A DNA stretch of 64,000 bases from Pseudarthrobacter siccitolerans (GTDB lineage Bacteria; Actinomycetota; Actinomycetes; Actinomycetales; Micrococcaceae), in NCBI RefSeq assembly GCF_030823375.1, contig NZ_JAUSXB010000001.1, positions 2,852,001-2,916,000 of the forward strand, in the 5' to 3' direction. How positions within the stretch are numbered: the stretch's first letter is position 1; the number at the start of each line of letters is the position of its first letter. The position numbers and the translations under genes were made by a program. This document shows, in pieces, positions 5,206 to 45,724 of the stretch. The notes under the pieces are model-generated. The model saw nothing but the letters and a program-made list of their open reading frames with translations, was not told where the DNA came from and made no database searches.

Positions 5206-5310
5206 ATTCCGAGCCGCTGCCCTCAGCCTTGAACGATCAAGCGGCGGCGATTGAGGGCGTTCTCCATTGAACGCCACCCGACAAAATCGATTAGACGGAG
5301 AAAGATAAAC

Positions 5311-6171
5311 ATGGCCAAAATTGGCGTCCAGGCAATGATGCTGATGCAGGACTTCGCGCAGGACGGGGCATTCGAAACGCTCAAGAAAGTCAGCGCGATT
5401 GGGTACAATGCGGTAGAGATTTCGCAGATTCCCATGTCCGCGAATGTCGTGGACGAGTTGGACCGCGCCCGGACTGAACTTGGCATGGAAATGGCGGCCC
5501 TGTCCGTGGCGGTAGATCTCCCCGCTGGTCGCCCAGGCGATACGCTCAAAAAGGACTTCGCAAAGATTGTCGACGACGCCAACCGTCTCGGATCCAAATT
5601 CCTGCGCATCGGTATTATGCCTTTCCCGGCCCTGAAGTCAATAAATGCTGTAGCCGACTTTGCAAAGGAAGCAAATGAATACGCGGAGCAGCTGAAAGAA
5701 CACGGCATCGGTCTCTATTACCACAATCATCACATCGAATTTGCGAAGTTCGACGGAAAGTACATGCTGGACATTATTGCCGACAATTCCCCTGCGATGG
5801 GCTTGGAACTTGACGTGCACTGGGTTCAGCGCGGTGGCCACGACCCCGTGCGCACGATTAACAAGTATGCGGGCCGCGCCGCCATGATCCACCTCAAGGA
5901 CTACCGCGTGGGCGAAGTGCCGGAGACCGCTTTCGCCAAGCTCGCCGCCCGGGACGCTGAGGGCTTCCGCAATGACTTTCGAAACGTTATTGAATTCGCT
6001 GAAGTGGGCGAGGGCAACCTCGACTTTCCAAGCATCATTGCCGCGTCCCAGGCCGCAGGCGCGGAGTATTTGCTCGTCGAACAGGATGAACTCTACGGCC
6101 GCACGGTATGGGAAGCGCTCCAAACGTCCTATGACAACCTCGTGGCAATGGGGCACTCAAACCTTTTCTAA
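5311..6171 (+). CDS. Sugar phosphate isomerase/epimerase-like TIM-barrel protein (IolE-type)
   Basis: A 286-residue xylose-isomerase-like TIM barrel. The ATG at 5311 is chosen because GGAG lies 11 bases upstream and the fold starts at once (KIGVQAMM). Metal-site residues visible are H138/H140 and E143 in YYHNHHIEF, D168/H170 in LDVHW, H195/K197 in HLKD and E257. This intact ligand set differs from the first TIM-barrel gene at 3329, which lacks the HLKD histidine. It precedes a second Gfo/Idh gene by 42 bp. The role is probably isomerisation, epimerisation or elimination on a keto sugar. Confidence 0.78.
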   Translation: MAKIGVQAMMLMQDFAQDGAFETLKKVSAIGYNAVEISQIPMSANVVDELDRARTELGMEMAALSVAVDLPAGRPGDTLKKDFAKIVDDANRLGSKFLRIGIMPFPALKSINAVADFAKEANEYAEQLKEHGIGLYYHNHHIEFAKFDGKYMLDIIADNSPAMGLELDVHWVQRGGHDPVRTINKYAGRAAMIHLKDYRVGEVPETAFAKLAARDAEGFRNDFRNVIEFAEVGEGNLDFPSIIAASQAAGAEYLLVEQDELYGRTVWEALQTSYDNLVAMGHSNLF

Positions 6172-6213
6172 CCCCGGCTTTAAGCAGTCAAACAAGATAT
6201 GGAGAATTATCAA

Positions 6214-7380
6214 ATGAGCAAGAAAGTCCGCCTTGGCATAATCGGTCTTGGGCAGCAGGGCAGCATGTACGCTCACTTCATCAGCACAGGTAAAGTCCCC
6301 AACATGGTCATTGGTGCCGTCTGCGACGTCGACGCGTCCAAGAAGGAAGAAGCTGCTGCTAAGTATCTGGACATCCCGTTCTACGATGACTACATCACTA
6401 TGCTCGACAGTGGAGACGTGGATGCTGTAGTGACCTGCGTGCCGCACTTCCTCCACCCCGAGATGGGTATCGAAACGCTGAAACGGGACATCCACGTGCT
6501 CGTCGAAAAGCCCGCTGGAGTGTACACAAAGCAAGTGTCGGAACTGAACGAGTTCGCAGCTAGCAAGCCCGAACTGTCGTTCGCCATCATGTTTAACCAA
6601 CGGAACAACCCCCTGTACCAGCGGCTCAAGGAGATCGTGGAGAACGGGGAAATCGGCGACATCCGCCGGACCAACTGGATCATCACCACCTGGTGGCGCC
6701 CACAGGGGTACTACAACTCAAGTGAATGGCGGGCCACCTGGGGCGGCGAAGGCGGTGGTGTCCTGGTAAACCAGGCGCCTCACCAGCTGGACCTCTGGCA
6801 GTGGATTTGTGGTGTTCCCAAATCGGTGTACGCAAAGGTTGCATACGGCTTCCGCCGGGACATCGCAGTTGAAGATGAAGTTACAGCCCTAGTCGATTAC
6901 GGCGACGGCGCCACGGGCGTCTTCGTCACCGCAACCCATGACTTGACCGGCACGGACCGCTTCGAGATCCTGGGCGACAAAGGCAAGATCATCGTCGAAA
7001 ACTCCAAAACGGCCACTGTGACCCGACTGGTCAAGCCGGAGCGTGAACTCAGCGATTCGATGGGTATGGACGACATCCGCAAGGTAGTCACCGGGCAGCT
7101 GGACTCCGATGAGCTTTACGCTTCCGAAGTCATCGAATTCCCGTCACCTTGGGGGGTACAGCACGCGGGCGTACTGGAAAACTTCGCCGCCAATATCCTG
7201 GACGGAACCCCGCTTCTGGCCCCGGGCTCGGACGGCATCAAGGGTGTTCGTCTGGCTAACGCAATTCACCTGTCGAGCTGGACGGGGAGCGAAGTCGACT
7301 TGGACTTTGATGAAGACCTGTTCCTCGCTGAGTTGAACAAGCGCATCCTGGCAGAAGGCAAGTTCCCACAACGCTCCTAG
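6214..7380 (+). CDS. Gfo/Idh/MocA-family oxidoreductase
   Basis: A 388-residue dehydrogenase. The start at 6214 has a well-placed GGAG and is preferred over the in-frame ATG at 6199, which would overlap that site. GLGQQGSM at 11-18 is the nucleotide-binding loop and EKP at 98-100 holds the catalytic lysine. The C-terminal domain has GGGVLVNQAPHQLDLW. It is only moderately similar to the 4174 gene, so the two are not a recent duplication. The natural substrate cannot be read from sequence. Confidence 0.82.
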   Translation: MSKKVRLGIIGLGQQGSMYAHFISTGKVPNMVIGAVCDVDASKKEEAAAKYLDIPFYDDYITMLDSGDVDAVVTCVPHFLHPEMGIETLKRDIHVLVEKPAGVYTKQVSELNEFAASKPELSFAIMFNQRNNPLYQRLKEIVENGEIGDIRRTNWIITTWWRPQGYYNSSEWRATWGGEGGGVLVNQAPHQLDLWQWICGVPKSVYAKVAYGFRRDIAVEDEVTALVDYGDGATGVFVTATHDLTGTDRFEILGDKGKIIVENSKTATVTRLVKPERELSDSMGMDDIRKVVTGQLDSDELYASEVIEFPSPWGVQHAGVLENFAANILDGTPLLAPGSDGIKGVRLANAIHLSSWTGSEVDLDFDEDLFLAELNKRILAEGKFPQRS

Positions 7381-8808: not shown

Positions 8809-9336
8809 GTGAGCAACAATCAACCCGGAAACGCCGGACCCCGTGTAGTGGTCATGGGCGTCTCCGGCTGCGGCAAGACCACCATCGGCGATCTTGTGGC
8901 CCGCGAACTGGGTGTCCCGTTCCTGGACGGCGATTCCCTCCATCCGGTGGAGAACGTGGCCAAGATGGCGGCCGGCACACCGCTGACGGATGAGGACCGC
9001 TGGCCCTGGCTCGCCACGGTGGGCCGCGAGCTGGCTGCAGCGGGAGATGGCGGGATGGTGCTTGCCTGCTCCGCCCTCCGCCGCAGCTACCGCGACGCCA
9101 TCCGCGAACAGGCTCCGGACACCATCTTCCTGCACCTGAACGGCAGCAAAGAGGTCCTGAAGGCACGCATAGAAAGCCGCACCGGGCACTTCATGCCACC
9201 GGCACTCCTGGAGTCACAGCTTGCAACGCTGGAACCGCTCGACGCCAACGAAGCCGGCGTCCACGTCGACATCGCCGCACCCGTAAACGAAGTAGTGGCC
9301 ACGGCGCTGGCCAACATCCCGCACACCCACGTCTGA
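8809..9336 (+). CDS. gntK: Gluconokinase
   Basis: A 175-residue P-loop kinase of GntK length. The Walker A motif GVSGCGKTT is at 17-25, followed by the family signature DGDSLHPVENVAKM and DEDRWPW. It phosphorylates gluconate to 6-phosphogluconate. The GTG start lies 8 bp after manD with a GGAAA box. Placed right after a mannonate dehydratase, it either serves gluconate made by one of the Gfo/Idh or SDR enzymes here, or phosphorylates another aldonate. No 6-phosphogluconate dehydrogenase gene is present in the window. Confidence 0.9.
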   Translation: MSNNQPGNAGPRVVVMGVSGCGKTTIGDLVARELGVPFLDGDSLHPVENVAKMAAGTPLTDEDRWPWLATVGRELAAAGDGGMVLACSALRRSYRDAIREQAPDTIFLHLNGSKEVLKARIESRTGHFMPPALLESQLATLEPLDANEAGVHVDIAAPVNEVVATALANIPHTHV

Positions 9337-9432
9337 CCGGCGTGCTTAACACATGCAACTCTCGCGGCCGGTGATGGCTGCCGCCGACCAAAAGGGCTAC
9401 CTGAATGCTGTTACCAACGAAGGAGAAAAACT

Positions 9433-10266
9433 GTGAAGATAACCCCGGGTAGCGTCGCCGTCATCACGGGAGGCGCCAGCGGTATTGGTTTTGGCCTCGC
9501 AGAAGCCCTCGCGGAACGAGAGGTCCGTCTGGTTTTAGCCGACGTCCGAGAGGATGCCCTTGAACCGGCTGCTGATGCCCTCCGGGCAAAGGGCGCGGAG
9601 GTTGCGACCGTCCGCACCGACGTCACTGACCGGAATTCCGTGGAAGGGCTTGCGCACCGCACCTTGGAACTATTCGGACGGGTCGACCTCGTTTGCAACA
9701 ACGCCGGCCTGATATGTTCCGGCGCACCCCTCTGGGAGCAGAGCACACAGACCTGGGACCGAATGATCGCGGTCAAGGTCATGGGAGTTGTCCATGGAGT
9801 CCAAGCCTTCGCCCCCATCATGATTAAGCAAGGCGCAGGGCATTTTCTTAACACTGCATCGTCCGGCGGCCTGGCGCCATTGCCGAACCGCACACCGTAC
9901 ACCGCCACAATGCACGCGGTTGTAGGTTTGACCGAGACTCTCGACCTCGAACTCAAAGCAGAGGCGCTGGCCCTCGGGGCGACCGTGCTGTGTCCTGGCC
10001 TCGTGGACACAGCAATCGGAAAGAACTCGGCAACCTTGGGCGCAATCAAATTGTCGTCAGGCGCCGAGGGGGCGATGCGAAGCATCGCGGCTGCTTCCGG
10101 AGGGATCCTCACGCCGCTGGAGGTTGGCGAGGCAGCGATAGCCGGCATTGAGGAAGGCAGGGTCCATGTAGCCCCCGGTAATGACGTTTCCGCCCGCGCT
10201 AAAGCAAGGGTGCAAGGCCTGTTGAGGGACTTGGAAAAGTCAGGACAGGTTATTGAAACCCATTGA
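9433..10266 (+). CDS. Short-chain dehydrogenase with catalytic lysine replaced by methionine
   Basis: A 277-residue classical SDR. TGGASGIG at 12-19 binds the cofactor, NNAG is at 90-93, and the active-site serine lies in NTASS near 143. The YxxxK motif reads Y156-T-A-T-M160 instead of the PYTATK usual in close relatives; the codon at 9910-9912 is ATG, one base from AAG. Loss of this lysine normally cripples SDR catalysis. The start has a strong AAGGAG. It is followed by an MFS exporter. Function is unknown; the protein may be inactive, regulatory, or the base may be a sequencing error. Confidence 0.8.
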   Translation: MKITPGSVAVITGGASGIGFGLAEALAEREVRLVLADVREDALEPAADALRAKGAEVATVRTDVTDRNSVEGLAHRTLELFGRVDLVCNNAGLICSGAPLWEQSTQTWDRMIAVKVMGVVHGVQAFAPIMIKQGAGHFLNTASSGGLAPLPNRTPYTATMHAVVGLTETLDLELKAEALALGATVLCPGLVDTAIGKNSATLGAIKLSSGAEGAMRSIAAASGGILTPLEVGEAAIAGIEEGRVHVAPGNDVSARAKARVQGLLRDLEKSGQVIETH

Positions 10267-10270
10267 TGTC

Positions 10271-11944
10271 ATGACTCCCGGGAACAGACCTAAAAAACCA
10301 AGAGCCCACGCAACGAAGCACAAGAAGGGTTCATCCACTGGTTCGATCCTCAGGACATTGACCGGGCTGCTTACGGGCCTTCTTGTAGCGCTCTTGGCGA
10401 GCTCAATTATTTCCACCTCAATTCCTCGAATTGTTAACGACCTAGCGGGATCCCAGGCCACTTTCACTTGGATCGTGACCGCCACTTTACTGGCCATAAC
10501 TATTAGCACGCCGATTTGGGGCAAATTGGCCGACCTACTAAATCGGAAGGCATTAGTGCAGGCAGCCCTGGTGATCTTTGTCGCAGGTTCCCTGCTGGCT
10601 GGCGCTGCACCTGAACCAGGCACTTTAATCGCAGGACGCGTCATTCAAGGACTGGGCGCTGGCGGCTTGCTGACTCTGGTGCAGATCATCATGGCCGATA
10701 TCATTAGCCCGCGAGACCGTGGAAAGTATATGGGCTTGACGGGCGCAGTCATGACAGCGGGCTCCGTGGGAGGACCGCTGCTCGGTGGAGTCATCACTGA
10801 TTTCGCTGGGTGGCGGTGGAACTTCTTCGCCTCAGTTCCCTTCGCCCTGGCCTCGCTCGTGCTGATTCAACTTACTCTTCACTTGCCCCGGAAGCCTCGG
10901 ACCGTGACCATCGATTACGCCGGAGCCGTCTTCATAACCGCCGGCGTGTCGAGCCTGCTGATCTGGATAACTTTGGGTGGCTCGCAGTTTGAATGGCGTT
11001 CACTTCAATCTTTGCTGTTGCTGGCGGCATCCCTCGTACTGCTTATCGCTGCCGTCCTGATAGAAAGAAAGGCCGCAGAACCGATTATCCCGCTGTCTCT
11101 GTTCCGGAATCGTTCCTTCTCCCTCACTGTTATCGCCAGCATCTCAGTAGGTGTGGCGGTCTACGGTACGGCAGTATTCATGAGCCAGTACCTGCAGCTC
11201 AGTCGCGCGGCCACCGCTACGGACTCTGGACTTATTGCCATGCCTCAGGTCATTGCAGTGGTGGTGGCGTCCACGGTCGTTGGCGCCCTGATCAGCCGCT
11301 CGGGTAAATGGAAATTCTGGATGGTCCTGGGAGCCAGCTTCCTCACCTTGGGCTTGGGTTGCTTGGCAACCATAGGCGTGGCGACACCGATACCACTCCT
11401 GTGGACCTATATGGCATTTGTTGGATTGGGCATCGGGATGGTTATGCAAAACCTCGTCCTCGTCACTCAGAACACGGCCGAGGTAGCGCACCTAGGCGTA
11501 GCAAGCGCCGGGGTAGCCTTCTTCCGCACTCTAGGCGGAACAATCGGAGTCACGGTACTTGGCGCAGCCCTTTCCTCAAGGGCAGCACAAGTCATAGCGG
11601 ACAAATCCGACTCCTTGAGGGCGCAGGGGATTGACCCATCGGTGATCAGCACCGGACGGCTACCAGATATGGGTTCCCTAAGCGATCCCCTTCGTGCCGT
11701 GGTTGCGGAAGCCTATGCCCAGGGAGTGGCCGGAGTATTTCTACTATCCACGCCGCTTGCGCTGCTTACTGTTGTCGCCATCGCTTTCCTTCCCAATGTG
11801 CCTCTGAAGCGAAAGACAGGCCTTGAACAACTCGCGGAAACGGAAGCAGAAATCGCCGTGGACATCGCCGGGGGAGAGGCACGGCTAGCTGTTAGCGAAT
11901 CGGAAGGTACGAGGGAATTGTCAACAGACTCCCGCCGCCCGTAA
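10271..11944 (+). CDS. MFS transporter, DHA2 (EmrB/QacA-like, 14 TM) family
   Basis: About 557 residues with 14 hydrophobic segments by eye. Family motif A appears as GKLADLLNRK after the second helix, and a motif C-like AGSVGGPLLGG stretch follows. DHA2 members are proton-coupled drug or metabolite exporters in the cytoplasmic membrane. The SDR gene ends at 10266; an ATG at 10271 is taken as start, though a TTG at 10253 is in frame. Location in a uronate operon suggests export of a toxic intermediate or a co-transferred resistance function. The stretch 9433-11944 looks less G+C-rich than its neighbours. Confidence 0.85.
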   Translation: MTPGNRPKKPRAHATKHKKGSSTGSILRTLTGLLTGLLVALLASSIISTSIPRIVNDLAGSQATFTWIVTATLLAITISTPIWGKLADLLNRKALVQAALVIFVAGSLLAGAAPEPGTLIAGRVIQGLGAGGLLTLVQIIMADIISPRDRGKYMGLTGAVMTAGSVGGPLLGGVITDFAGWRWNFFASVPFALASLVLIQLTLHLPRKPRTVTIDYAGAVFITAGVSSLLIWITLGGSQFEWRSLQSLLLLAASLVLLIAAVLIERKAAEPIIPLSLFRNRSFSLTVIASISVGVAVYGTAVFMSQYLQLSRAATATDSGLIAMPQVIAVVVASTVVGALISRSGKWKFWMVLGASFLTLGLGCLATIGVATPIPLLWTYMAFVGLGIGMVMQNLVLVTQNTAEVAHLGVASAGVAFFRTLGGTIGVTVLGAALSSRAAQVIADKSDSLRAQGIDPSVISTGRLPDMGSLSDPLRAVVAEAYAQGVAGVFLLSTPLALLTVVAIAFLPNVPLKRKTGLEQLAETEAEIAVDIAGGEARLAVSESEGTRELSTDSRRP

Positions 11945-34908: not shown

Positions 34909-35526
34909 ATGACAGTGCAGACTCCAAGGGCTCGTCGGGGACCTTACCGGAAGGGGATCGAGCAGCGGCAGAAGATGGTTGAAGTCGCAGTCGAGGTCTT
35001 CGGCCAGAACGGTTTCAAGGGAGGTACTTTGCAGCAAGTGGCGGACCGGGTGGGCCTGACACCCGGGGCCATCATGAAGCTGTTCGGAAGCAAGGAAGGC
35101 CTGCTCATAGCCGTACTCGAGCACTGGGGGAAGGCCACCGCCGACGTCGTTGGACCAGATCTCCGCGGGTACGCGCTGCTGGAGGGGTTCCGGCGCCTGA
35201 TGTCCTACCACGTCCGCCACCCAGGCCTCCTGGCGCTCTACACGACCATGGCAGCTGAAGCCACATCCCCGGAGCACCCCGCACACGATTTCATGACAGC
35301 CCGCTACCGCACAAGCCTGGGGGACATGCGTGAACTTTTCGCCGAGGCAGCCGCAAGCGGGCACTTTCGACCGCTCGGCGTACAGGAGATCGCGCACGAG
35401 GCGGAATTCCTCCTGGCCACCATGGACGGGCTGGAGATACAGTTTCTGCTAAACCGCTCGTTCGACCTCGAGTCTTCCTTCGGTGCCTATATCGATTGCC
35501 TGAACGAGCGCCTCGCGCCGGCTTGA
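34909..35526 (+). CDS. TetR/AcrR-family regulator, paralogue 1
   Basis: A 205-residue regulator. The N-terminal helix-turn-helix (GGTLQQVADRVGLTPGAIMK then LFGSKEGLL) is followed by a helical ligand domain. It is closely similar over the whole length to the product of 45065 (same MTVQ start, AVEVFGQ, YHVxHPGLLALYTTMAAEAT). It follows the importer-dehydrogenase operon and shares a promoter block with its paralogue. It is the likely repressor of 28923-34652. Confidence 0.9.
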   Translation: MTVQTPRARRGPYRKGIEQRQKMVEVAVEVFGQNGFKGGTLQQVADRVGLTPGAIMKLFGSKEGLLIAVLEHWGKATADVVGPDLRGYALLEGFRRLMSYHVRHPGLLALYTTMAAEATSPEHPAHDFMTARYRTSLGDMRELFAEAAASGHFRPLGVQEIAHEAEFLLATMDGLEIQFLLNRSFDLESSFGAYIDCLNERLAPA

Positions 35527-35557: not shown

Positions 35558-36535
35558 TCACGAGGCCTCGGTGAGGTCAAGGAGTGTTTTGATGGAATTG
35601 TGGCCGCCCTCTCCGGCGAAGAGTGCGGGCAGGTCTTCGAGCCGGACAAGGGAGTCGACCAGGTCGGATGGTGAGAGGATCTTGTGGGCGCTGAGACGTT
35701 GTGCCCGGTTCATCCACCGCATCACGTCCTCGGGGTTGCGGTGATGGAGGCTGAGTACGCGTAGGGCCCGGTAGTTCCAGCTCTCCATGTCCACGGTGCG
35801 TTTGCCGCCGTTGGACTGGTGGTAGCCCATGATTCCTAATGTGCCGCCGATCTGCACCAGGCTCGCTGCAAGATCAAGCCCGGCGGCCGCGCCGGTGGCT
35901 TCAATGACGAATGAATTGTTCTGCATCATGGCGTCGGTGACCTCGTCCGGGCTGAAGGTCCGGTCCGCCCCCCATTTGTTAGCCAGCTCCCTGGCAGTGT
36001 CGCGGGGTTCGATGACGGTGACCCGGTGCCCTTGGGCGACCAGCAGGCGAAGGGCCATCAAACCCATGAAACCGGCACCGACCAGGATCACTTCGGAGGC
36101 CTGCGCCAGTTCGAGCATTTCGAGGCCGCCGATGACGCAGGCGAGCGGTTCGGCCAACGCGGCGTCCCGAAGGCTGCAGCCGGGGTGGAGCGGGATGATC
36201 CTATCGTTGGGGACGATGATCTCCGTTGCATATCCGTCAGTGACATAGGCAGCGACCGGCAGGCCCGCGTGGAGAGCCGGATCAGTACTCTCTGTAATCG
36301 TGCCCGAGACTTCGTGGCCAAGCCGCGAGGGAAAGGGGCCTTGGCCTTCCCGGACCATGGCAGTATCTGAATGGCATACTCCGACGTAGGCCACCCGAAC
36401 CCTCACGTGGCCGCCGGGCAGCATCTCCGGCTGCCCTTGGTCGATGGTCACTTTCCCCGGCCCGGTGGCAGTAAGCCAGCTGGCCAGTTTCGTCTCGGCT
36501 TTCTGATCCAAGGTGCTGATCAGCGGCTTGCCCAT
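35558..36535 (-). CDS. Zinc-dependent alcohol dehydrogenase (MDR family), short form
   Basis: A 325-residue medium-chain dehydrogenase. The ATG at 36535 lies within the end of the ThuA gene (16-bp overlap). The catalytic site has GVCHSD and GHEVSG. The four-cysteine structural zinc loop is absent, unlike the 33615 enzyme. VGAGFMGLMALRLL is the cofactor loop. It is the last gene of the minus-strand cluster that begins at 42732 and is convergent with the first TetR gene. Substrate unknown, probably a sugar-derived alcohol. Confidence 0.85.
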   Translation of the reverse strand: MGKPLISTLDQKAETKLASWLTATGPGKVTIDQGQPEMLPGGHVRVRVAYVGVCHSDTAMVREGQGPFPSRLGHEVSGTITESTDPALHAGLPVAAYVTDGYATEIIVPNDRIIPLHPGCSLRDAALAEPLACVIGGLEMLELAQASEVILVGAGFMGLMALRLLVAQGHRVTVIEPRDTARELANKWGADRTFSPDEVTDAMMQNNSFVIEATGAAAGLDLAASLVQIGGTLGIMGYHQSNGGKRTVDMESWNYRALRVLSLHHRNPEDVMRWMNRAQRLSAHKILSPSDLVDSLVRLEDLPALFAGEGGHNSIKTLLDLTEAS

Positions 36536-37218
36536 AGCAGGCCCCTTTCGATGATGGTGCGGATGTTGGTGTTTTGGAGGATTTCGACGCGGTGGCCGGG
36601 GGTGGTGACGAAGATGCGGCCTTTGCCCCATTGGCGGGTCCAGATGGCGGGGGAGGTGACTTCGCGGTTCCAGGGGTCCCATTCCCGGGCTTTTTGGGTG
36701 GTGGTGGCCAGGACGTCGATGTAGTCGTCGGAGAGGACCCAGTATTGTTCGGTGACCAGGTCGAAGTCCTTGAGGCCTTTGGTGATGGGGTGTTCGGCGG
36801 CTGCGGGGAGCATGTTGATGGTGTAGGGCATGTAGTTGTCTGACTGTTCGCCGGTGCATTGGTCGGGGTGCTTGCCGGGGTGGCAGGCGAACTGCCCGCC
36901 GATCAGGTGGAGGTAGTCGGAGTTGTTCCGGTAGGAATCGGCGATCCCGCCGTGCCAGCCGGCCAGGCCGGTGCCGTTTTCGACGGCGGTGCGGAGCCCG
37001 GCGAATTCTTCTTTTTCGATGGTGGTCATGGTCATGCATTGCATGATCAGGTCCACGCCTGCCATGTAGTGGGTGTCGGCGTAGACCTTGGGTGATTCTT
37101 CGACGCGGACGTCGTAGCCGTTGTCTTTGAGGTAGGGGATGAAGAGTTCGGTGGCTTCGTAGGGCTGGTGGCCGTCCCAGCCGCCGCGGACCACCAGGGC
37201 GGTCTTATTCTCGGTCAT
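36520..37218 (-). CDS. ThuA-like (glutamine-amidotransferase fold) trehalose-utilisation family protein
   Basis: A 232-residue ThuA-domain protein. Visible features are ALVVRGGWDGHQP at the start, GLAGWHGGIADSYR in the middle, ACHPGKHPDQ and YWVLSDDY. In rhizobia, ThuA works with a Gfo/Idh partner (ThuB) in catabolism of 3-keto-disaccharides. Here Gfo/Idh and TIM-barrel genes lie directly upstream, so a similar keto-sugar role is likely. Confidence 0.85.
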   Translation of the reverse strand: MTENKTALVVRGGWDGHQPYEATELFIPYLKDNGYDVRVEESPKVYADTHYMAGVDLIMQCMTMTTIEKEEFAGLRTAVENGTGLAGWHGGIADSYRNNSDYLHLIGGQFACHPGKHPDQCTGEQSDNYMPYTINMLPAAAEHPITKGLKDFDLVTEQYWVLSDDYIDVLATTTQKAREWDPWNREVTSPAIWTRQWGKGRIFVTTPGHRVEILQNTNIRTIIERGLLWASR

Positions 37219-37251: not shown

Positions 37252-38256
37252 TTAGTGGCTGGTGAAGGCGGCGTCGAAGGCGGCTGCGGGCGGGGCTATC
37301 CGGGCGAGTTCCTGGACCATGGCCAGTGCCTGCGGGGCGCCGGTGAGGCGGTCCATGCCGGCGTCTTCCCATTCGATGCTGGTGGGGCCGTTGTAGCCGA
37401 TGGCGTTCAGGGTCCGGAAGATCCGGTTCCATGGCACGTCCCCGTGGCCTGCGGTGACGAAGTCCCAGCCGCGGCGGGGATCTGCCCAGGCCAGGTGGGA
37501 GCCGAGGCGTCCGTTGCGGCCGTCGAGTTGGCGGATGGATTCTTTTACGTGGACGTGGAGGATGTGTTCGGCGAAGTCCTGCAGGAACATTACCGGGTCC
37601 AGGTCTTGCCAGATGAAGTGGGACGGGTCGAAGTTCAGCCCGAAGCTCTTGCGGTGCCCGATGGCTTCGAGGGTGCGTTTGGTGGTCCAGTAGTCGTAGG
37701 CGATTTCGGAGGGGTGGACTTCCAGGGCGAACCGGACGCCTTGTTCTTCGAAGACGTCCAGGATGGGGTTCCAGCGGTCCGCGAAGTCCTGGTAGCCGGC
37801 GTCGATCATGGTTTCGGAGGCGGGCGGGAACATGGCGACGGCTTTCCAGATGGAGGAGCCGGTGAACCCGGTGACGGTGTTCACGCCGAGGCGGGCGGCT
37901 GCCCGGGCGGTGTCTTTCATTGATTCGGCGGCCCGGCGGCGTACTCCTTCGGGTTCGCCGGTGCCCCAGATTTCGGTGGAGAGGATGCCTTGGTGGCGTT
38001 CGTCGATGGGGTCATCGCAGACGGCCTGGCCGGTGAGGTGGTTGGCGATGGCGAAGACGCGCAGGTTGTTTTTTTCCAGGATGTCCAGCCGGCCCTGGAG
38101 GTAGTTGTCGTCTTCCGCGGCGCGGCGGGGGTCCAGGTGGTCGCCCCAGCAGGCAATCTCGAGCCCGTCGAAGCCCCACTCGCCGGCGAGCCGGGCCACC
38201 TCCTCAAAGGGCAGGTCGGCCCACTGGCCGGTAAAAAGCGTGATTGGCCGTGTCAT
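37252..38256 (-). CDS. Sugar phosphate isomerase/epimerase-like TIM-barrel protein
   Basis: A 334-residue TIM barrel, longer than the other three. The ATG at 38256 lies 5 bp after the Gfo/Idh stop and has GGTGACAGAG before it. Probable metal ligands are E179 (ALEVHP), D210 and H213 (NFDPSHF), H236 with K238 (HVHVKES) and E297 (IEWED). Close relatives sit beside Gfo/Idh dehydrogenases, and some TIM-barrel partners of such enzymes catalyse beta-elimination or hydration of 3-keto sugars. The exact step is unknown. Confidence 0.8.
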
Positions 38257-38261
38257 CTCTG

Positions 38262-39485
38262 TCACCGGCTTCCGGCCGAAACTGCGGCAGTGGATCCTAC
38301 GTCGGTCCACCGGCAGTTGTCGTTGGCACTAGCTTCAACAGTTGCCAGGACTTTTTGCACCTGCAGGGCATCCGTGAATGAGGGTTCCGGTTGACGGCCT
38401 TCACCGATTGCCGTGACAAGGTCCACCACCTGGTGCGTGAAGCCGTGCTCGTACCCCAGTCCGTGGCCGGTGGGCCACCAGTTGCCCACGTAGGGGTGCT
38501 CGGGCTCAGTGACCATGATGCGCCGGAATCCGGCGTCGGGCTCTTCGGCACGGTCATAGACGGAGAGGTAGTTCATGTCTTCGAAGTCGAAGGCCAGGGA
38601 TCCTTCTGATCCGTTGACTTCGATGCGCATGGCGTTGCGGCGCCCAAGGGCTGCCCGCGATGCTTCAAAGACGCCGATCGGGCCGCCGTCGAACTTTGCA
38701 CTGAAGACCACTGCGTCATCGACCGTTACCGGGCCTTTTTGCGCGGCTTGGCCTGTGGTGCCGTGGCCGCCCAGGCCGACGAAGTCTCCGCCTATAGGAC
38801 GTTCTTTGACGAACGTCTCCATCAGGGCAGAAACGCCGGTGATTTTTTGGCCGGTGATCCATTGGGTGGCGTCGATGATGTGCGCACCGATGTCTCCCAG
38901 GGACCCCGAACCGGACTTGCTCTTGTCCATCCGCCAGGTCAGCGGTGCGTTCTCGTCACTGAGCCAGTCCTGCAGGTACTGGGCCCTGACCTGGCGAATG
39001 TGGCCGAGCCTGCCCTGTTCGACGAAGCGTTTGGCCAGTGCCAGCGCTGGGGTGCGCCGGTAGGAGTACCCGCACATGGCGTAAACGCCGTTTCGGGCGG
39101 CGTCGTCGGCCGCCGCGCTCATCCGCTCTGCCTCCTCGACGGAGTTGGCCAGGGGTTTCTCGCACAGCACGTGCTTGCCGGCCTCAAGGGCCGCGATCGC
39201 TATCTCGGCGTGGGTGTCGCCGGGGGTGCAGATGTCGATCAGGTCGATGTCGTCCCGTTCGATCAGCCGGCGCCAGTCCGTCTCAACCGACTCCCAGCCA
39301 AGCTTGTCCGCCGCGGCCCGCACGCCGTCGGCGTTCCTTCCGGCCACGGCAGTGAGCTGAGGCTGCAGCGGCAGGTCAAAGAACCGGGGCGCGGTACGCC
39401 AGGCGTGGGAGTGGGCCGCACCCATGAAGGCGTAGCCCACCATGCCGATGCGGAGCGGTTGCGGGAGGTCGGTGGTGGGGAACAT
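38262..39485 (-). CDS. Gfo/Idh/MocA-family oxidoreductase (levoglucosan-dehydrogenase-like group)
   Basis: A 407-residue dehydrogenase. [16 protein letters not shown] (14-29) is the cofactor loop and EKP is at 109-111. The stretches [25 protein letters not shown] and [13 protein letters not shown] are shared, as far as I recall, with actinobacterial levoglucosan dehydrogenase, which oxidises the C3 hydroxyl of an anhydrosugar. The identity is not high enough by memory to assign that substrate. It lies between the importer and the TIM-barrel and ThuA genes, so a 3-keto product is expected. Confidence 0.82.
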
Positions 39486-39524: not shown

Positions 39525-40403
39525 TTATTGGCCGGCGAGGGAGCCGCCGATGCCCCCGACGCTGAAGTAACGGTTGAGGCAGCCGAAGACGATGATCGGA
39601 GGCAGGACCATGATGACGGCGACAGCCATGACGGGGCCCCAGTCCGTGGCGTTCTGCTGAAAGAAAGTCTGCAGGCCCACCGGCAGGGTGAAGTGGTTGT
39701 TGGAGCGCAGGAAGATCACGGCGATGAGGTAATCATTCCAGCAGACGAGGAAGCTGAAGATAGCGGTGGAAAGGACTCCTGGAAGGGAGTTACGAAGCAC
39801 GACACGAAGGAAGCTGCCGAAGACTGAGCAGCCGTCCATCCAGGCAGCTTCTTCGAGACTGATCGGGATCGAGTCGAAGTAGGCGGCCATCATCCAGGTG
39901 GCTACGGAGAGGGTGCCACCGACGTAGATGATGGTGACCCCGGTGAGGGAGTCCGCGAGTCCCAGGTTGGCGAAAAGGATGAACAAGGGAATGACGGAAA
40001 CGATGACGGGCAGGCTCTGGACAACGAACAGCAAGAGGGAGTAGCCCGCGACGAGCCTATTGCGCCCTCGGGATACCACGTATCCTGCTGGCGCCGCGAC
40101 GACGACGGCGGCGATGACGGTGATGAGGGTAACCCAAAGGCTGTTGCCCAGCCAGTGCAGGGCGGCGGTCTGGGTGAGCACGTAGGTGAAGGAGTCAAAG
40201 CCGATGCTGCCGCCGGTGGCGACGGGAGGCTGCAGGGCAAGGATGAACACTGCTGCCACGGGGACCAGGACGATCGCGGTGATGACGGAGAGGAGGGCGA
40301 ATCGGAGCCATTGGCCGTGCCTGGCGTTCGTGTCGCTGGTAAGTTCCCGCGGGCGGCCGGCGGCCGGGGCCGGCACTGGCCGGGTGGTTGCTGGTGCGGA
40401 CAT
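39525..40403 (-). CDS. Sugar ABC transporter permease (MalG-type)
   Basis: A 292-residue permease with a proline-rich polar N-terminus and six helices. The EAA loop reads LEEAAWMDGCSVFGSFLRVV. An AAAGAAAGG box precedes the ATG at 40403. It is the third gene of the 42732 operon. Confidence 0.92.
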   Translation of the reverse strand: MSAPATTRPVPAPAAGRPRELTSDTNARHGQWLRFALLSVITAIVLVPVAAVFILALQPPVATGGSIGFDSFTYVLTQTAALHWLGNSLWVTLITVIAAVVVAAPAGYVVSRGRNRLVAGYSLLLFVVQSLPVIVSVIPLFILFANLGLADSLTGVTIIYVGGTLSVATWMMAAYFDSIPISLEEAAWMDGCSVFGSFLRVVLRNSLPGVLSTAIFSFLVCWNDYLIAVIFLRSNNHFTLPVGLQTFFQQNATDWGPVMAVAVIMVLPPIIVFGCLNRYFSVGGIGGSLAGQ

Positions 40404-40433: not shown

Positions 40434-41387
40434 TCAGTGGATGACTGATTTGCGGATCTGGCGGTACAGCACCACGGAGACGAAGACGAGGACGAAGGTC
40501 ATCAGGAAGGCGATGGCTACCCCGTAGCCGGTCTGGAAGTTCTGGAAAACGACCCGGTAGGCGAGTACGACCAGTGAGGTGGTCGCATCAACGGGGCCGC
40601 CGCCGGTGAGCAAGTAGATGGTGGGGAAGTCGTTGACGCAGAAGATGGTCATCAGGATCCAGCTGATGTAGGTGGATCGGGCGATCAGCGGCAAGGTGAT
40701 TCCTGTGAACATCTGGGTCTTTGTTGCCCCGTCGACACGGGCCGCCTCGTAGACGGTCGGTTCGACACTGGATAGGGCGGCGCTGGTCATGAGCATCATG
40801 AACGGGAAGCTGATCCAGACCTTGAACACGCAGACCGTCAGGGCGGCCAGGGTGGGGTTCGCCAGGAACAGCACGTCCCCGAAGCCCAGGGCCTTGGCCA
40901 GGATAGGGATAGGGCTGGTCGATGTGGCGACCAGCCAGTTCCATGAGGTGGCGGAAACAACGACGGGCACCACCCAGGGCAGCAGCAGGAGGACCTTGAA
41001 CACTCCTGTCCCGGGAATCCTGGTCCGGATCAGCAGCGCCAGGGCCAGGCCGATGGCCCAGCTGCCGAAAACACCGGCGAGGGTGAAGACGAGTGTGAAC
41101 TGGGCCGCTTTCCAAAAGGCCGCGTCCCCGAAGGCCTTGGTGAAGTTATCCAATCCCACGAAGGGGCCGTCGCCGATGAGGGATCCGTTGTGCAGAGCCT
41201 GGACGGCGGCGTTGAACAACGGGTAGGCGTTGAGCAGTACCAGCAGGATGATGGACGGGGCGACCAGAGCTGCCATGGTCAGGCCGCCGCGGGTGACGCG
41301 CCGGGGCCGCCGCCCGGCGGGGCCTTGCCCCGCCGGGCCGGTTCCGCGAAGCGTGCGCGTTACGGAACGGACTGTCGTTGATGTCAT
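40434..41387 (-). CDS. Sugar ABC transporter permease (MalF-type)
   Basis: A 317-residue permease. The EAA loop reads VYEAARVDGATKTQMFTGIT. It lies 28 bp after the binding-protein gene. With 39525 it forms the membrane pore. Confidence 0.92.
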   Translation of the reverse strand: MTSTTVRSVTRTLRGTGPAGQGPAGRRPRRVTRGGLTMAALVAPSIILLVLLNAYPLFNAAVQALHNGSLIGDGPFVGLDNFTKAFGDAAFWKAAQFTLVFTLAGVFGSWAIGLALALLIRTRIPGTGVFKVLLLLPWVVPVVVSATSWNWLVATSTSPIPILAKALGFGDVLFLANPTLAALTVCVFKVWISFPFMMLMTSAALSSVEPTVYEAARVDGATKTQMFTGITLPLIARSTYISWILMTIFCVNDFPTIYLLTGGGPVDATTSLVVLAYRVVFQNFQTGYGVAIAFLMTFVLVFVSVVLYRQIRKSVIH

Positions 41388-41415: not shown

Positions 41416-42732
41416 TCACATCACCGATTCGATGCCCTTTTGCAGCGTGGCCAGCGCTGTCTTGGGGTCGGTCTCACCTTGCACAACCTGCTGGGCGAAG
41501 GCAGTGAAGGCTTGCCCGCCGTCAACGGCATTCAGGGATGAGACGATCTTGGTCGACTTCGCCGCGAAGGTCTTCGCGACCGGCTGCCATTCCTTCACGG
41601 CCTTGACCATGTTGGCGTCCTTCTGGAACTCGGGCAGATCCACGATGCTCTTGCGCACGGGAAGCGCCTGCAGGAGGCCCTTCTGCCAGTAGGACTTCAT
41701 CTGATCCAGATACCAGGTCATGAACGCCTCAGATGCCTGCTGGGAGGGGGTGTTCGAGTACATCATGAGGTTGTTGACGTAGTACAGGGTGCCCTTATCG
41801 CCGTGAGGACCCGTCAGCGGGCTGGCGACCTGGATGTCATCGTCTGTCTCGTCCAGGGAGGCCCGCAGGGAGGGGACGCTGAAACCCATGCCCACTTTTT
41901 TCGCCTTCCAGTCACTGTTCAGGTTGGCGCTGGTGTAGCTGACTGCGGCAGGGTCAATGATCCCTTCGCGGGAGAGCTGCTGATAGAACTGCAGGGTCTC
42001 GATGTTGCGGTCGGTGACACAGTCGGGTTTACCGTCTTCAGCGAAGAGTCCTCCGCCGTTGTTGATCATCATGGCCAGGATGGACTGTTCACCGAGCAGG
42101 GCGCCGGCACCTGTGGCGGTGCCGTAACCGATGACGCCGATCTTCTTCAGTGCCTTGCCGGCAGTGATGAAGCTGTCCCAGTCGGTGGGAGCCTCGACCC
42201 CGGCCTTTTCCAAGAGCGACTTGCGGTAGGAGAGCACCCGCATGTCCAGCTGCCACGGGACGGCCACGTAGCCCTTGTCGGTCTTGAGGGAGTCGAAAGT
42301 CCCGGGCAGGAAGTCGTCATAGGCGCCGCTCTTCTTCAGCGAGCCGACCAGGTCATCGGCATAGGCAATCGCGCCCTGGTCGGCGAACTGGAATGCCTGG
42401 AAGCCTCCGCCGGAGCTGACCGCCGGTCCGGTCTTCGAGGCCACCGCCGAGGCGAAGGTCTGGTAGTAGTTGGCCCACTGGGTGCTCTGGTAGGTTGCTT
42501 TGGTGCCGTCCGGCCCCGAGTATCCGTCGACGAGGGTCTGTGCGGCTTTGGTGTATTCAGGCGGACCCCAAGGCATATCCCAGACCTTGAGTGTGGTGCC
42601 TCCGGCACCGGAGGCGCTGCCGCCGGAACCGCCACAGGCGGCGAGAAGAGGCAGGGAAGCTGCTGCGGCAGCGAACCCCAGGAAGCCACGGCGGGAAACG
42701 GCGGAACCGCTGCCGGTGGAAGCATTCATCAT
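41416..42732 (-). CDS. Sugar ABC transporter, solute-binding lipoprotein with Tat signal
   Basis: A 438-residue binding protein. SRRGFLG (13-19) is a twin-arginine motif and LAAC puts the lipid anchor at C33, so it should be exported folded and then lipidated. LKVWDMPWGPPEYTKAAQTL opens the mature fold. GGAG precedes the double ATG. It heads an operon running to 35558, with permeases, Gfo/Idh, TIM barrel, ThuA and dehydrogenase. The ligand is likely a glycoside or anhydrosugar. Confidence 0.92.
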   Translation of the reverse strand: MMNASTGSGSAVSRRGFLGFAAAAASLPLLAACGGSGGSASGAGGTTLKVWDMPWGPPEYTKAAQTLVDGYSGPDGTKATYQSTQWANYYQTFASAVASKTGPAVSSGGGFQAFQFADQGAIAYADDLVGSLKKSGAYDDFLPGTFDSLKTDKGYVAVPWQLDMRVLSYRKSLLEKAGVEAPTDWDSFITAGKALKKIGVIGYGTATGAGALLGEQSILAMMINNGGGLFAEDGKPDCVTDRNIETLQFYQQLSREGIIDPAAVSYTSANLNSDWKAKKVGMGFSVPSLRASLDETDDDIQVASPLTGPHGDKGTLYYVNNLMMYSNTPSQQASEAFMTWYLDQMKSYWQKGLLQALPVRKSIVDLPEFQKDANMVKAVKEWQPVAKTFAAKSTKIVSSLNAVDGGQAFTAFAQQVVQGETDPKTALATLQKGIESVM

Positions 42733-42874: not shown

Positions 42875-43672
42875 TCATTCAGCTGTGCGTAGGGTGAAGA
42901 CGTCGCGTGCGAAGCCTGCCAGGTCGGTGCCGCTGGCGCCGTCCTGGACCAGGCGGTGCAGGTGGCGCCAGGCAGAACGGTGCGCCGTCTCCCACTGGGT
43001 CTCCAGCAGGGTCGCCCCTTCGGGTCCGGAGACAGTGACCTTGCCCGGCACGGCAGCGGACGGTCCCGGAAGGACGGTTTCCACAGCGGTCTCCGGCTTG
43101 ATGATCCGCAGATAGGCCGACGTCGGGACGGAGTCGGAAGCGATGGCGGACAAAGAAGCCCGGGCTCCGCTGGAAAGGAGTGCCTGTGCTTCATACCCGT
43201 GCATGTCTTTGAAGACAAAGCGCAGGTCGGTCACTTCATCGACCGCACTCCTGATGAGTGAAAGGTGGCCCAGCAGCACCCGTTCAAGGTCCGACCCCAC
43301 CGGGACATTGATTCTGGTTTCGAGGAGGCTGTCTGCATCATTCCGTGCGGTGAATGCATCCTTGCCGGCAGTGACCGCAGGGTTATAGGCCCAGGTGGAG
43401 TCGACGAGGACCGGGACGTCCGCCCCTTCTGCGGTGTCCCTCAGAGAGGTGACATCTTCAGGGCAGGGATTGATGACGAGGAGGCCCTTGGCGCCATTTC
43501 GGATGGCCTCTTCCGCTGCCTGCGTCCAGCCCTTACTTCCGTCGATGGCCACAAGGTCTGACTTGTCGGCACCGGCGGGGTGAAGTGACACGGGCAGGGA
43601 TGCGATAACTTCCGGCACAGCGCCGGAGGCCTCTGCGGCCGGGGCGGCAGTGACGGTGAGTTGGGTTGTCAT
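42875..43672 (-). CDS. Unknown protein, possibly a degenerate Gfo/Idh paralogue
   Basis: A 265-residue protein with no standard motif. Its middle resembles a Gfo/Idh enzyme in register: GAKGLLVINP stands where relatives have GKHVLxEKP, and VPVLVDSTWAYNPAV stands where they have the R-Y-N-P strand. The C-terminal part (ALLSSGARASLSAIASDSVP, VPGKVTVSGPEGATLLE) fits the beta-sheet substrate domain. The GxGxxG loop and catalytic lysine are absent. It overlaps the stop of a true Gfo/Idh gene, so it may be a non-catalytic partner subunit. This reading is inference. Confidence 0.6.
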   Translation of the reverse strand: MTTQLTVTAAPAAEASGAVPEVIASLPVSLHPAGADKSDLVAIDGSKGWTQAAEEAIRNGAKGLLVINPCPEDVTSLRDTAEGADVPVLVDSTWAYNPAVTAGKDAFTARNDADSLLETRINVPVGSDLERVLLGHLSLIRSAVDEVTDLRFVFKDMHGYEAQALLSSGARASLSAIASDSVPTSAYLRIIKPETAVETVLPGPSAAVPGKVTVSGPEGATLLETQWETAHRSAWRHLHRLVQDGASGTDLAGFARDVFTLRTAE

Positions 43673-44766
43673 ACTGTTACCTCTTCCTTGTTTGCTCCGA
43701 GTTCGCCCCGGGTCGCTTCCCGCACGGCGGCGGACGCTTTGTCAGCTACTTCCAGGGCGAACGTCAGGTCATGGATCAGGCCGTTGACATCGAGTGGGTG
43801 TGCCTTGCCCCGTGCCAGCTCTGCCAGGAACCGCCATTCTCCTTCGTATCCGTTGTAGGGGTACGGGCCGTACACCTGGGTTTCGGTACCCCGGCGTATG
43901 TGCGCGGTCGCCGAGCCTGCCTGCACGTAGGAGGGCGTGAAATCTATCCGTAGGGACGCGTCGTCCCCGATGGCCTCGAAATACCACTCCGGTTCCCAGC
44001 TCTGGGTGTTTACGCCGTACAACTGGACGCGGCGGTCTCCCACCCGAAGGTTGACCAGGTAACCCGAGGGGTGGGGGACGACGCAGGAGAGAACTTCGAC
44101 GTCCGTGAAATCGGGACAGAAGGCCCTGACAAGGGGAAGATCATGGATGGCCAAACCCATGATGCCGCCCCGGACCATTCCTGCAGCCACTTCCGGGTCG
44201 GTGCGGTCCTGTTTGGGCCAGGTCGGCCGGGTGATGACCTCGGTGGCGAAATCTTCAAAACGCGCGTTCGGAGGCAGAACGATCGAGTAACGGATCGTGT
44301 GAGCGGCCTGGACCAGGTCACCCCAGTTCGCCTGCGCGGCCAGCCAGCCCGGATCGAAGGTATGCATGGCGCCGACGATGATCGGCACCCCGGTCTCCTT
44401 CGATACAGCAGCGATTTCCTCGGCCTCCTGCTGACTCATCGCAAAGGGCTTCTCGCACAGCACTGCCTGCTTCCCGGCGCGGCACGCTGCTATTACCTGC
44501 TCGGCGTGGAACTGGTGCGGGCTGCAGATCACCACTATCTGGACGTTCTCGTCGGCCAGGAGCTCGTCCATGCTCGTGGTCCAGTCGGCGCCGACGCGCC
44601 CCGCAACGGACTCAGCAACGGCAGGGTCAACGTCCATGATGCGTGCAACGTGAAACACGTCCCGCAGCCTCGCCAGGGTCGGGAGGTGGATGGCTTGGGT
44701 GACCGGTCCGGCCCCCAGGATTCCAACTCCCAAAGTTGAAGTACTCAAAATAGTTTCTCCATTCAC
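43669..44766 (-). CDS. Gfo/Idh/MocA-family oxidoreductase
   Basis: A 365-residue dehydrogenase. GILGAGPVTQAIHLPTL (15-31) binds the cofactor; EKP is at 105-107 with K106. GIMGLAIHDLPLVRAFC carries the active-site histidine region. It is the first gene of a two-gene unit with 42875 (4-bp overlap) and diverges from the second TetR gene across a region containing an operator-like dyad. The substrate is unknown. Confidence 0.83.
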   Translation of the reverse strand: MNGETILSTSTLGVGILGAGPVTQAIHLPTLARLRDVFHVARIMDVDPAVAESVAGRVGADWTTSMDELLADENVQIVVICSPHQFHAEQVIAACRAGKQAVLCEKPFAMSQQEAEEIAAVSKETGVPIIVGAMHTFDPGWLAAQANWGDLVQAAHTIRYSIVLPPNARFEDFATEVITRPTWPKQDRTDPEVAAGMVRGGIMGLAIHDLPLVRAFCPDFTDVEVLSCVVPHPSGYLVNLRVGDRRVQLYGVNTQSWEPEWYFEAIGDDASLRIDFTPSYVQAGSATAHIRRGTETQVYGPYPYNGYEGEWRFLAELARGKAHPLDVNGLIHDLTFALEVADKASAAVREATRGELGANKEEVTV

Positions 44767-44985: not shown

Positions 44986-45014
44986 CTAAAAGGTATACCA
45001 GCATTTACCTTTAG
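44986..45014. promoter_or_regulatory. TetR-type dyad, site B
   Basis: CTAAAAGGTA on the left and TTACCTTTAG on the right, 29 bp overall. It lies 50 bp before the TetR ATG and about 220 bp before the divergent Gfo/Idh gene. It is the clearest of the four related sites. Confidence 0.6.
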
Positions 45015-45064
45015 TGCAATACTTGGATTCAAAGCATCCCCGACCAAAGGCAGGCCCCGACCCC

Positions 45065-45724
45065 ATGACAGTGCAGCGCACCCCGCGGGGCCCGTACAAA
45101 AAGGGAATCGAACGCCGTCAGGAAATAGTGAAAGTCGCTGTGGAGGTCTTCGGCCAGTACGGATTCAAAGGGGGAACACTCCAGCAGGTAGGTGACAAGG
45201 TCGGACTCACGCCCGCAGCCATCATCAAACTGTTCGGAAGCAAAGAGAAACTCCTCATAGCCGTCCTTGAACACTGGGGTGTAGTCACAGGCGGCATCGT
45301 CGGGCCGGAAGCAACGGGATACCAGCGTCTGGACGGCTTCAAACGTCTCATGGCCTATCACGTCGAGCACCCCGGATTACTTGAGCTGTACACCACCATG
45401 GCCGCCGAGGCGACATCCGTGGAACATCCAGCACATGGGTTCATGACTGCCCGGTATCACGCCTCGCGGGAAGATATGAGGCGCCTTTTCAGCGATGCTG
45501 TGAACGAAGGGCGGTTCCGGCGAATGAACCAGGAGGAGATCACGCACGAGGCGGAATTCCTGCTCGCGATCATGGACGGACTCGAAATCCAGTTCCTGCT
45601 CAATCCAGCATTCGGCCTGCAGAAATCCTTCAGTGCCTTCCTGAACCGTCTCGATCAGAGGCTCAAACCTGACATGCCGCAGGGGGATCTGAAAGCCCAA
45701 ATAGTCCAGAGCGAGAGGAAGTAG
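45065..45724 (+). CDS. TetR/AcrR-family regulator, paralogue 2
   Basis: A 219-residue regulator. The ATG at 45065 is chosen because MTVQRTPRGPYKKGIERRQE aligns exactly with the start of the 34909 product. The helix-turn-helix reads GGTLQQVGDKVGLTPAAIIK. It diverges from the Gfo/Idh unit at 44766 and probably represses it, and perhaps the importer operon at 42732. High similarity to paralogue 1, including the upstream block, suggests duplication with partial overlap of targets. Confidence 0.9.
   Translation: MTVQRTPRGPYKKGIERRQEIVKVAVEVFGQYGFKGGTLQQVGDKVGLTPAAIIKLFGSKEKLLIAVLEHWGVVTGGIVGPEATGYQRLDGFKRLMAYHVEHPGLLELYTTMAAEATSVEHPAHGFMTARYHASREDMRRLFSDAVNEGRFRRMNQEEITHEAEFLLAIMDGLEIQFLLNPAFGLQKSFSAFLNRLDQRLKPDMPQGDLKAQIVQSERK

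Follow-up and report, generated by a model that had tools for sequence, protein, structure and literature searches.

The C0-C1 gene pair

Sugar dehydrogenases of the Gfo/Idh type are widespread and are usually treated as homo-oligomers, open to annotation and expression gene by gene. The present analysis deals with two overlapping genes, one coding for a protein of this type and the other for a degenerate relative of it, located on a stretch of 64,000 nucleotides from Pseudarthrobacter siccitolerans (assembly GCF_030823375.1, contig NZ_JAUSXB010000001.1, positions 2,852,001 to 2,916,000 of the forward strand), hereafter called the window. The upstream gene, C0 (43669..44766, minus strand), starts with GTG and encodes a Gfo/Idh/MocA dehydrogenase of 365 amino acids (PF01408, E 1.9e-23). 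The downstream gene, C1 (42875..43672, minus strand), starts with ATG and encodes a product of 265 amino acids, recognised as a degenerate Gfo/Idh paralogue by profile-profile comparison and predicted fold. The stop of C0 and the start of C1 share four bases (43669..43672, minus strand), a geometry of the translational-coupling type. Both the 265-residue product and the four-base overlap had been described in an earlier note on this DNA, made from the sequence letters, and both were confirmed.

Sequence and predicted fold of C1

No match to the window C1 was obtained in Pfam, in NCBIfam or among the PDB sequences. In hhalign, the segments of C1 follow the order of those of C0 (E 4.3e-6 over 221 columns), and the comparison of the two profiles built from 87 distinct pairs, from which duplicates and the loci L020, L060 and L061 with a C0 split over two frames were left out, gave E 5.1e-12 over 235 columns, in accordance with the ordered resemblance to the Gfo/Idh family reported in the earlier note. 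The column-reversed control of the latter comparison gave E 0.07, and 16 other families of the same loci gave E 0.01 or worse. The single-sequence comparison of C1 with C0 reached only E 0.063, the C1 profile retrieved no Gfo/Idh protein from the PDB sequences (best E 0.47, to other proteins), and profile-to-sequence cross matches were similarly weak, with 17-35 bits for the C1 model on C0 proteins in some loci and 22 bits for the C0 model on the C1 of locus L070. Because these sequence-level searches are weak, the kinship between C1 and C0 shows mainly through profile-profile comparison and through the fold.

None of 32 diverse C1 members matched the Gfo/Idh Pfam families PF01408, PF02894 and PF22725 at E 0.01. 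Three weak stray matches occurred, each in a single member, to MR_MLE_C (E 0.0013, the best of the three), to PA (0.0034) and, in NCBIfam, to thiazolinyl imide reductase (0.0038), which we take to be a Gfo/Idh-type protein. The remark of the earlier note that no described family has this form agrees with the content of Pfam and NCBIfam.

The AlphaFold model of the window C1 (pLDDT 95), compared by VIA-align re-alignment of Foldseek candidates, aligns with Gfo/Idh structures across 252 of its 265 residues. The predicted structure consists of a Rossmann-type domain followed by an open-faced alpha/beta sheet domain, which is the Gfo/Idh/MocA superfamily fold that the earlier note had proposed to look for. 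Compared with C0, the nucleotide-binding part is reduced and the middle of the protein is shorter.

With respect to the catalytic motifs, the place of the EKP motif is occupied in the window C1 by I67-N68-P69, opposite E105-K106-P107 of C0, and no GxGxxG string was found near the start of the protein, just as first noticed. The column of the catalytic lysine contains no lysine in any of the 87 C1 proteins, the residues found being Asn (42), Asp (17), Ala (8), Glu (6), Ser (5), Arg (3), His (3), Gln (2) and Gly (1). The term "lysine-less" previously applied to C1 therefore holds for the catalytic lysine but not for the whole protein, since the window C1 possesses seven lysines elsewhere. H208 of C0 stands opposite C1 position 135, in a register set by eye on the following Arg, and His is absent from this position in all 87 proteins. 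There is good support for C1 being a degenerate C0 paralogue without the EKP lysine and, in the register used, without the catalytic His, and, as judged from sequence and predicted fold, C1 looks like the inactive paralogue expected in enzyme/pseudoenzyme pairs of the prozyme type.

The catalytic-type protein C0

The window C0 carries both E105-K106-P107 and H208, and the EKP motif and the later His are kept by C0 in all 87 pairs. Its dinucleotide-binding loop (residues 18-23) reads GAGPVT instead of GxGxxG. The designation of C0 as a normal Gfo/Idh protein thus stood with regard to PF01408, EKP and His, but needs qualifying for the loop and for the Gly found at the place of the usual Asp. With 50 bits to the levoglucosan dehydrogenase (LGDH) model NF052479, the cut-off of which is 650 bits, C0 belongs to a separate subfamily.

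Distribution and constancy of the pair

Among 5.8 billion database proteins, of which 7997 candidates were scored, 62 match C1 at E<=1e-3, the window C1 included. None of them has a listed Pfam domain, and their source names are nearly always "hypothetical protein". A pattern scan using one genome per species revealed 54 C1 loci in named genomes, the hosts of which include Arthrobacter, Pseudarthrobacter, Paenarthrobacter, Sinomonas and several Microbacteriaceae, as well as Kineosporia, Saccharopolyspora, Streptomyces and Propionibacteriaceae, so that the pair, which the earlier note proposed to seek in other Micrococcaceae, extends beyond this family. Neither of the two outcomes by which, according to that note, its view would have been refuted, an unrelated fold or a lack of the pair elsewhere, was obtained. 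In view of the 62 proteins and the 54 loci, C1 is not a chance open reading frame. One record (P0043), with a C1 that is 54% identical, bears the proteobacterial name Lysobacter korlensis; it possibly comes from a misnamed assembly, the family being otherwise actinobacterial-looking.

In a set of 59 genomes, C1 occurs in 20 of the 37 belonging to the own genus group (own genome counted) and in none of the 22 others. For the samples taken at the level of order, class and phylum, and for one scan of genomes for C1, at most the 5-6 best first-look candidates were scored per genome, and misses are possible. The order sample yielded 21 C0 genes, spread over 17 of its 396 genomes, and the class sample 8, spread over 7 of 394, and C1 adjoins all 21 and all 8 of them, respectively. 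All of these C0 genes score at least 264 bits, and no match is listed from there down to the cut-offs (1e-30 and 1e-40). In the phylum sample, a C0 match was obtained in 3 of 396 genomes.

Along the collected loci (overlapping loci included), C1 lies alongside 105 of 105 C0 rows of at least 200 bits, as detected with a C1 model iterated on those very loci; a 130-bit C0 fragment (L061) fell under the 200-bit line. Conversely, the loci found via C1 possess C0; the exceptions, L081-L083, match over part of the length at 19-23 bits. Weak matches of the C1 profile in three other genomes (G089, G037 and G231, E 3e-5 to 9e-4) were rejected, being partial and devoid of a C0-subfamily gene alongside. 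A half-length relative of 111 bits in the phylum sample (L126), ending near a contig edge, stands without C1. An in-frame start is located exactly at the 4-bp overlap in 85 of the 87 pairs. The split C0 genes of L060 (8901-10001), L020 and L061, the last (Hiyo8) with a C1 that is also split, may result from sequencing error or from real decay.

Across 461 comparisons, the median ratios of non-synonymous to synonymous substitution (dN/dS, NG86) amount to 0.13 for C0 and 0.27 for C1, which is thus under purifying selection, less tightly than C0. Between the distances of C0 and those of C1, the correlation is 0.946, a value reached by none of 500 permutations, and the partial C0-C1 correlations over 34 loci, given each of six other genes, range from 0.67 to 0.89. 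This co-divergence is consistent with contact between C0 and C1 and falls short of proof.

Gene neighbourhood and sister clusters

In the window, the two genes head a run of genes on the minus strand. C1 is followed by genes for a sugar-binding protein of the ATP-binding cassette (ABC) type (41416..42732, PF01547, E 3.2e-28) and two ABC permeases (40434..41387 and 39525..40403, both PF00528), for a levoglucosan-dehydrogenase-like Gfo/Idh enzyme (38262..39485), for a xylose-isomerase-like TIM barrel (37252..38310) of PF01261, the Pfam family of LgdB1 and LgdB2, for a ThuA family protein (36520..37218, PF06283, E 7e-46) and for a zinc-type alcohol dehydrogenase (35558..36535), which closes the run. 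The LGDH-like protein scores 364 bits with NF052479. Since this falls below the curated cut-off of 650 bits, the protein is a relative of LGDH and its assignment as LGDH itself was ruled out. Its closest solved structure is 4h3v from Kribbella flavida (588 bits), and it also matches the Gal80p_C-like family of Pfam. Upstream, C0 adjoins a divergent TetR-type regulator gene (45014..45724, plus strand). A second TetR regulator lies at the other end of the operon (34909-35526), and the two belong to one group, with 316 and 322 bits to a single model built with both.

A table of 71 loci, in which L120 was left out as a duplicate of L071 and the counts are lower bounds owing to variable locus lengths, lists C1 in all 71, each of the ABC permeases in 58, the binding protein in 54, the LGDH-like enzyme in 46 and the TIM barrel C9 (PF01261, the gene at 37252 in the window) in 43. 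Regulators of the ROK type occur in 47, a third Gfo/Idh enzyme in 41, another TIM barrel (C7) in 39, TetR in 23, ThuA and PF06439 proteins in 9 each, and CGDB in 4. The C0-C1 pair thus persists while the other neighbours vary.

A second C0-C1 pair occurs in the same genome, outside the window and about 116 kb from the first (L084:416-2247, contig positions about 3012866-3014697). Its genes, C0 (416-1456) and C1 (1453-2247), overlap in a manner identical to the first pair, and the identities between the two pairs are 37% for C0 and 20% for C1. The surrounding cluster is of the C-glycoside type, with a ROK regulator, an LGDH-like enzyme and a TIM barrel. Relatives of the C-glycoside deglycosidase subunits were detected there and in L109, L112 and L117; those of L109 score 633 bits with chain A and 184 bits with chain B of 7dnm, a structure whose chain B is named AgCarC2 and which we infer to be AgCGD2. 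In some loci of this second type, genes for ThuA, a GMC oxidoreductase or ring cleavage are also present. In another genome (L123:7050-8789, minus strand), a single open frame of 579 amino acids joins C1 with a 3-keto-disaccharide hydrolase domain of PF06439 (E 2e-18). The neighbouring genes and this fusion point to 3-keto-sugar metabolism.

Two identities considered for C1 were set aside. A CGDB-type beta subunit is contradicted by the separate CGDB gene of L117, and ThuA (PF06283) by the separate gene at 36520-37218; in addition, C1 has no Pfam match.

A probable enzyme/pseudoenzyme heteromer and its alternatives

From the pairing, the overlap and the co-divergence, we infer that a single NAD(P)-dependent sugar oxidoreductase is made up of C0 as its catalytic and C1 as its non-catalytic subunit, an enzyme/pseudoenzyme heteromer, and we hold this interpretation to be reasonably probable. 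A substrate-presenting role of C1, the other possibility raised in the earlier note, may likewise follow from these features. The near-constant pairing of C0 with an overlapping relative that lacks key catalytic residues suggests that the enzyme probably works as a C0-C1 pair. Gfo/Idh enzymes assemble through their open-faced beta-sheet domain, and a heteromer is the simplest model because C1 retains this domain without the usual dinucleotide loop. According to the proposed scheme, a C0-like ancestor would have been duplicated, one copy losing part of the nucleotide-binding domain and the catalytic residues while keeping the sheet domain for assembly. In the resulting heteromer, C1 would replace a second C0, and would complete, stabilise or gate the active site or the substrate pocket of C0. 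The reaction would consist of an oxidation or a reduction at C3 of a sugar, yielding or consuming a 3-keto-glucose or 3-keto-glycoside, next to the LGDH-like enzyme and the TIM-barrel relatives of eliminases and hydratases and, in the sister clusters, with the C-glycoside deglycosidase. This C3 step is the best guess, since C0 and C1 sit among relatives of genes of the levoglucosan, C-glycoside and 3-keto-sugar pathways.

Several observations weigh against this interpretation. The usual catalytic triad of Gfo/Idh enzymes is Lys-Asp-His. In C0, the third Gly of the loop is missing in all 87 proteins (it is mostly Thr, the first two Gly being kept in 86 of 87, with one gap), and Gly occupies residue 204, four positions ahead of the His, in 85 of 87, in contrast to the Asp of the relatives; the LGDH-like neighbour possesses Asp in the corresponding hhalign column. 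As both the third loop Gly and the usual Asp are absent, the chemistry of C0 itself is uncertain. On the side of C1, a GxGxxG string occurs within the first 45 residues of 2 of the 87 proteins, one of them, the C1 from Amnibacterium flavum (L049), having it (GSGPYG) at the place of the loop, which indicates that not every C1 has shed this motif; L049 is perhaps a decay intermediate. Of the 87 C1 proteins, 49 have His at position 136, one column off the register set by eye, and with a register shifted by one this residue would align with the C0 His in those 49. With regard to the pairing, locus L125 (G823:C96) of the phylum sample contains a C0 ended by an internal stop, with no C1 in the ~0.87 kb beyond; no other gene of the C0 subfamily was encountered without C1. 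An apparent C-terminal part of another Gfo/Idh gene follows that C0. Genes of an operon co-occur, overlap and co-diverge even without binding of their products: in the set of 34 loci, the correlation with C0 is 0.939 for the LGDH-like gene and 0.953 for C1. Finally, only the gene context points to the likely substrate.

The strong conservation of a helix in C1, with R232 kept in all 87 proteins, E228 in 84, W235 in 79 and H231 in 78, could mean that C1 possesses a site of its own. C1 might accordingly be a neo-enzyme for the next, non-redox step, such as the hydration, elimination or epimerisation of a 3-keto sugar, that would act in or beside the C0 complex with the E228/H231/R232/W235 helix and D91/W94/N97. 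Although the fusion of one C1 to a 3-keto-disaccharide hydrolase domain accords with this possibility, fusions often joining consecutive enzymes, the C0 motif NGYEGEWR stands opposite W235 and a portion of the helix in the alignment, and the helix may therefore be structural. In addition, W235 is replaced by Leu in 8 of 87 proteins and H231 is changed in 9, and LgdB-family TIM-barrel enzymes for elimination and hydration are already available in many clusters. A neo-enzyme is thus unlikely. A more far-reaching version of the heteromer, likewise unlikely, is a new enzyme class whose Gfo/Idh active site would be composite: C0 would have given up the Asp and the third loop Gly, and the near-invariant Glu/Arg helix of C1 would supply the acid/base or hand on the 3-keto sugar, as a two-subunit machine operating across anhydrosugar and C-glycoside catabolism.

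Gal80 is a non-catalytic protein of the Gfo/Idh fold that keeps its dinucleotide site and is not known to be gene-paired with a catalytic paralogue. A comparable role for C1, as a sensor or regulator reading the state of the sugar or of the cofactor and controlling the TetR or ROK repressor, or C0, recalls the Gal80p_C-like match of the LGDH-like neighbour and the frequency of both repressor types (TetR in 23 and ROK in 47 of the 71 loci). It is nevertheless quite improbable, for C1 is present in all 71 loci while the regulator is TetR, ROK or neither of those seen, and the dinucleotide loop is gone in the window C1 and, at that place, in 86 of 87 C1 proteins.

The looser constraint on C1 would also suit a mere folding helper or an operon hitch-hiker, with the finished enzyme unaffected. 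This seems very improbable, because the pair is kept in L070, L072, L111 and L108, where the transporter and most other neighbours were not seen, and also in the diverged paralogous pairs of one genome. As for C1 being a pseudogene in decay or an artefact of gene calling, to which the missing catalytic motifs and family name and the split C1 of L061 might lead, this explanation is practically negligible in view of the open C1 in all 87 counted pairs (the three split-frame loci excluded beforehand), the dN/dS of 0.27, the conserved start overlap and the high-confidence fold.

Relation to known systems

The search of open-licence full texts returned no description of a Gfo/Idh enzyme that has a dead paralogue as a subunit. 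ThuA and ThuB of rhizobia, which convert trehalose to 3-keto-trehalose, associate a Gfo/Idh enzyme with a partner protein. The likeness to the C0-C1 pair resides in a Gfo/Idh enzyme and a partner acting on a 3-keto sugar, and in the ThuA gene of the window operon; the partner ThuA, however, belongs to PF06283, whereas C1 matches no Pfam family and is paralogous to its own dehydrogenase. Similarly, Gal80 and other non-catalytic proteins of this type resemble C1 as a Gfo/Idh fold without dehydrogenase function and differ in that C1 is gene-paired with its catalytic paralogue.

In the levoglucosan pathway, as outlined in passages of PMC7676230 and PMC10066097, LgdA oxidises C3, LgdB1 eliminates, LgdB2 hydrates and the Gfo/Idh enzyme LgdC reduces 3-keto-glucose. 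LgdA (LGDH) and LgdC (glucose 3-dehydrogenase), a system with PDB entries 6a3f-6a3j, share with the present one the Gfo/Idh family, the neighbouring sugar ABC transporter and PF01261 TIM barrels, and the type of host, the record of L053, with C0 and C1 at about 8865-10786 of the locus, carrying the strain name LG01 of PMC10066097. In contrast, those passages present each of the two as the product of one gene, acting without a dead partner, and C0 forms a separate subfamily with Gly at the usual Asp. C-glycosides are likewise oxidised at C3 first and cleaved second, according to PMC8563793, in clusters with a DgpA-type Gfo/Idh oxidoreductase (PDB 7xr9, 7dnm). Beside the second-type pairs lie near relatives of both chains, A and B, of 7dnm, but the heteromer of those clusters is the deglycosidase, a TIM barrel with a beta subunit, and does not unite a Gfo/Idh enzyme and a second protein of the Gfo/Idh fold. 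A PF06439 protein is proposed as a 3'-ketolactose hydrolase in PMC9007349. In trypanosomes, S-adenosylmethionine decarboxylase (AdoMetDC) is activated by heterodimerisation with its inactive paralogue prozyme, as documented by crystal structures (PMC5201418). Both systems would combine a catalytic enzyme with an inactive paralogue and differ in fold, in pathway and in the eukaryotic nature of the trypanosome pair, by analogy with which the C0-C1 complex is proposed.

In soil bacteria of the Arthrobacter type, activities that failed or were misassigned might be explained by a Gfo/Idh subfamily paired with a catalytically dead paralogue. The C0-C1 pair would also offer a bacterial, easily expressed model for the passage from a duplicated homomer to an enzyme/pseudoenzyme pair, and C1 represents an unannotated protein family marking probable 3-keto-sugar catabolic clusters, for anhydrosugars as well as C-glycosides.

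Another sugar cluster occurs in the window at 4426-7380, where a TIM-barrel gene (71 bits) is located between two genes for distant Gfo/Idh-like products (57 and 68 bits).
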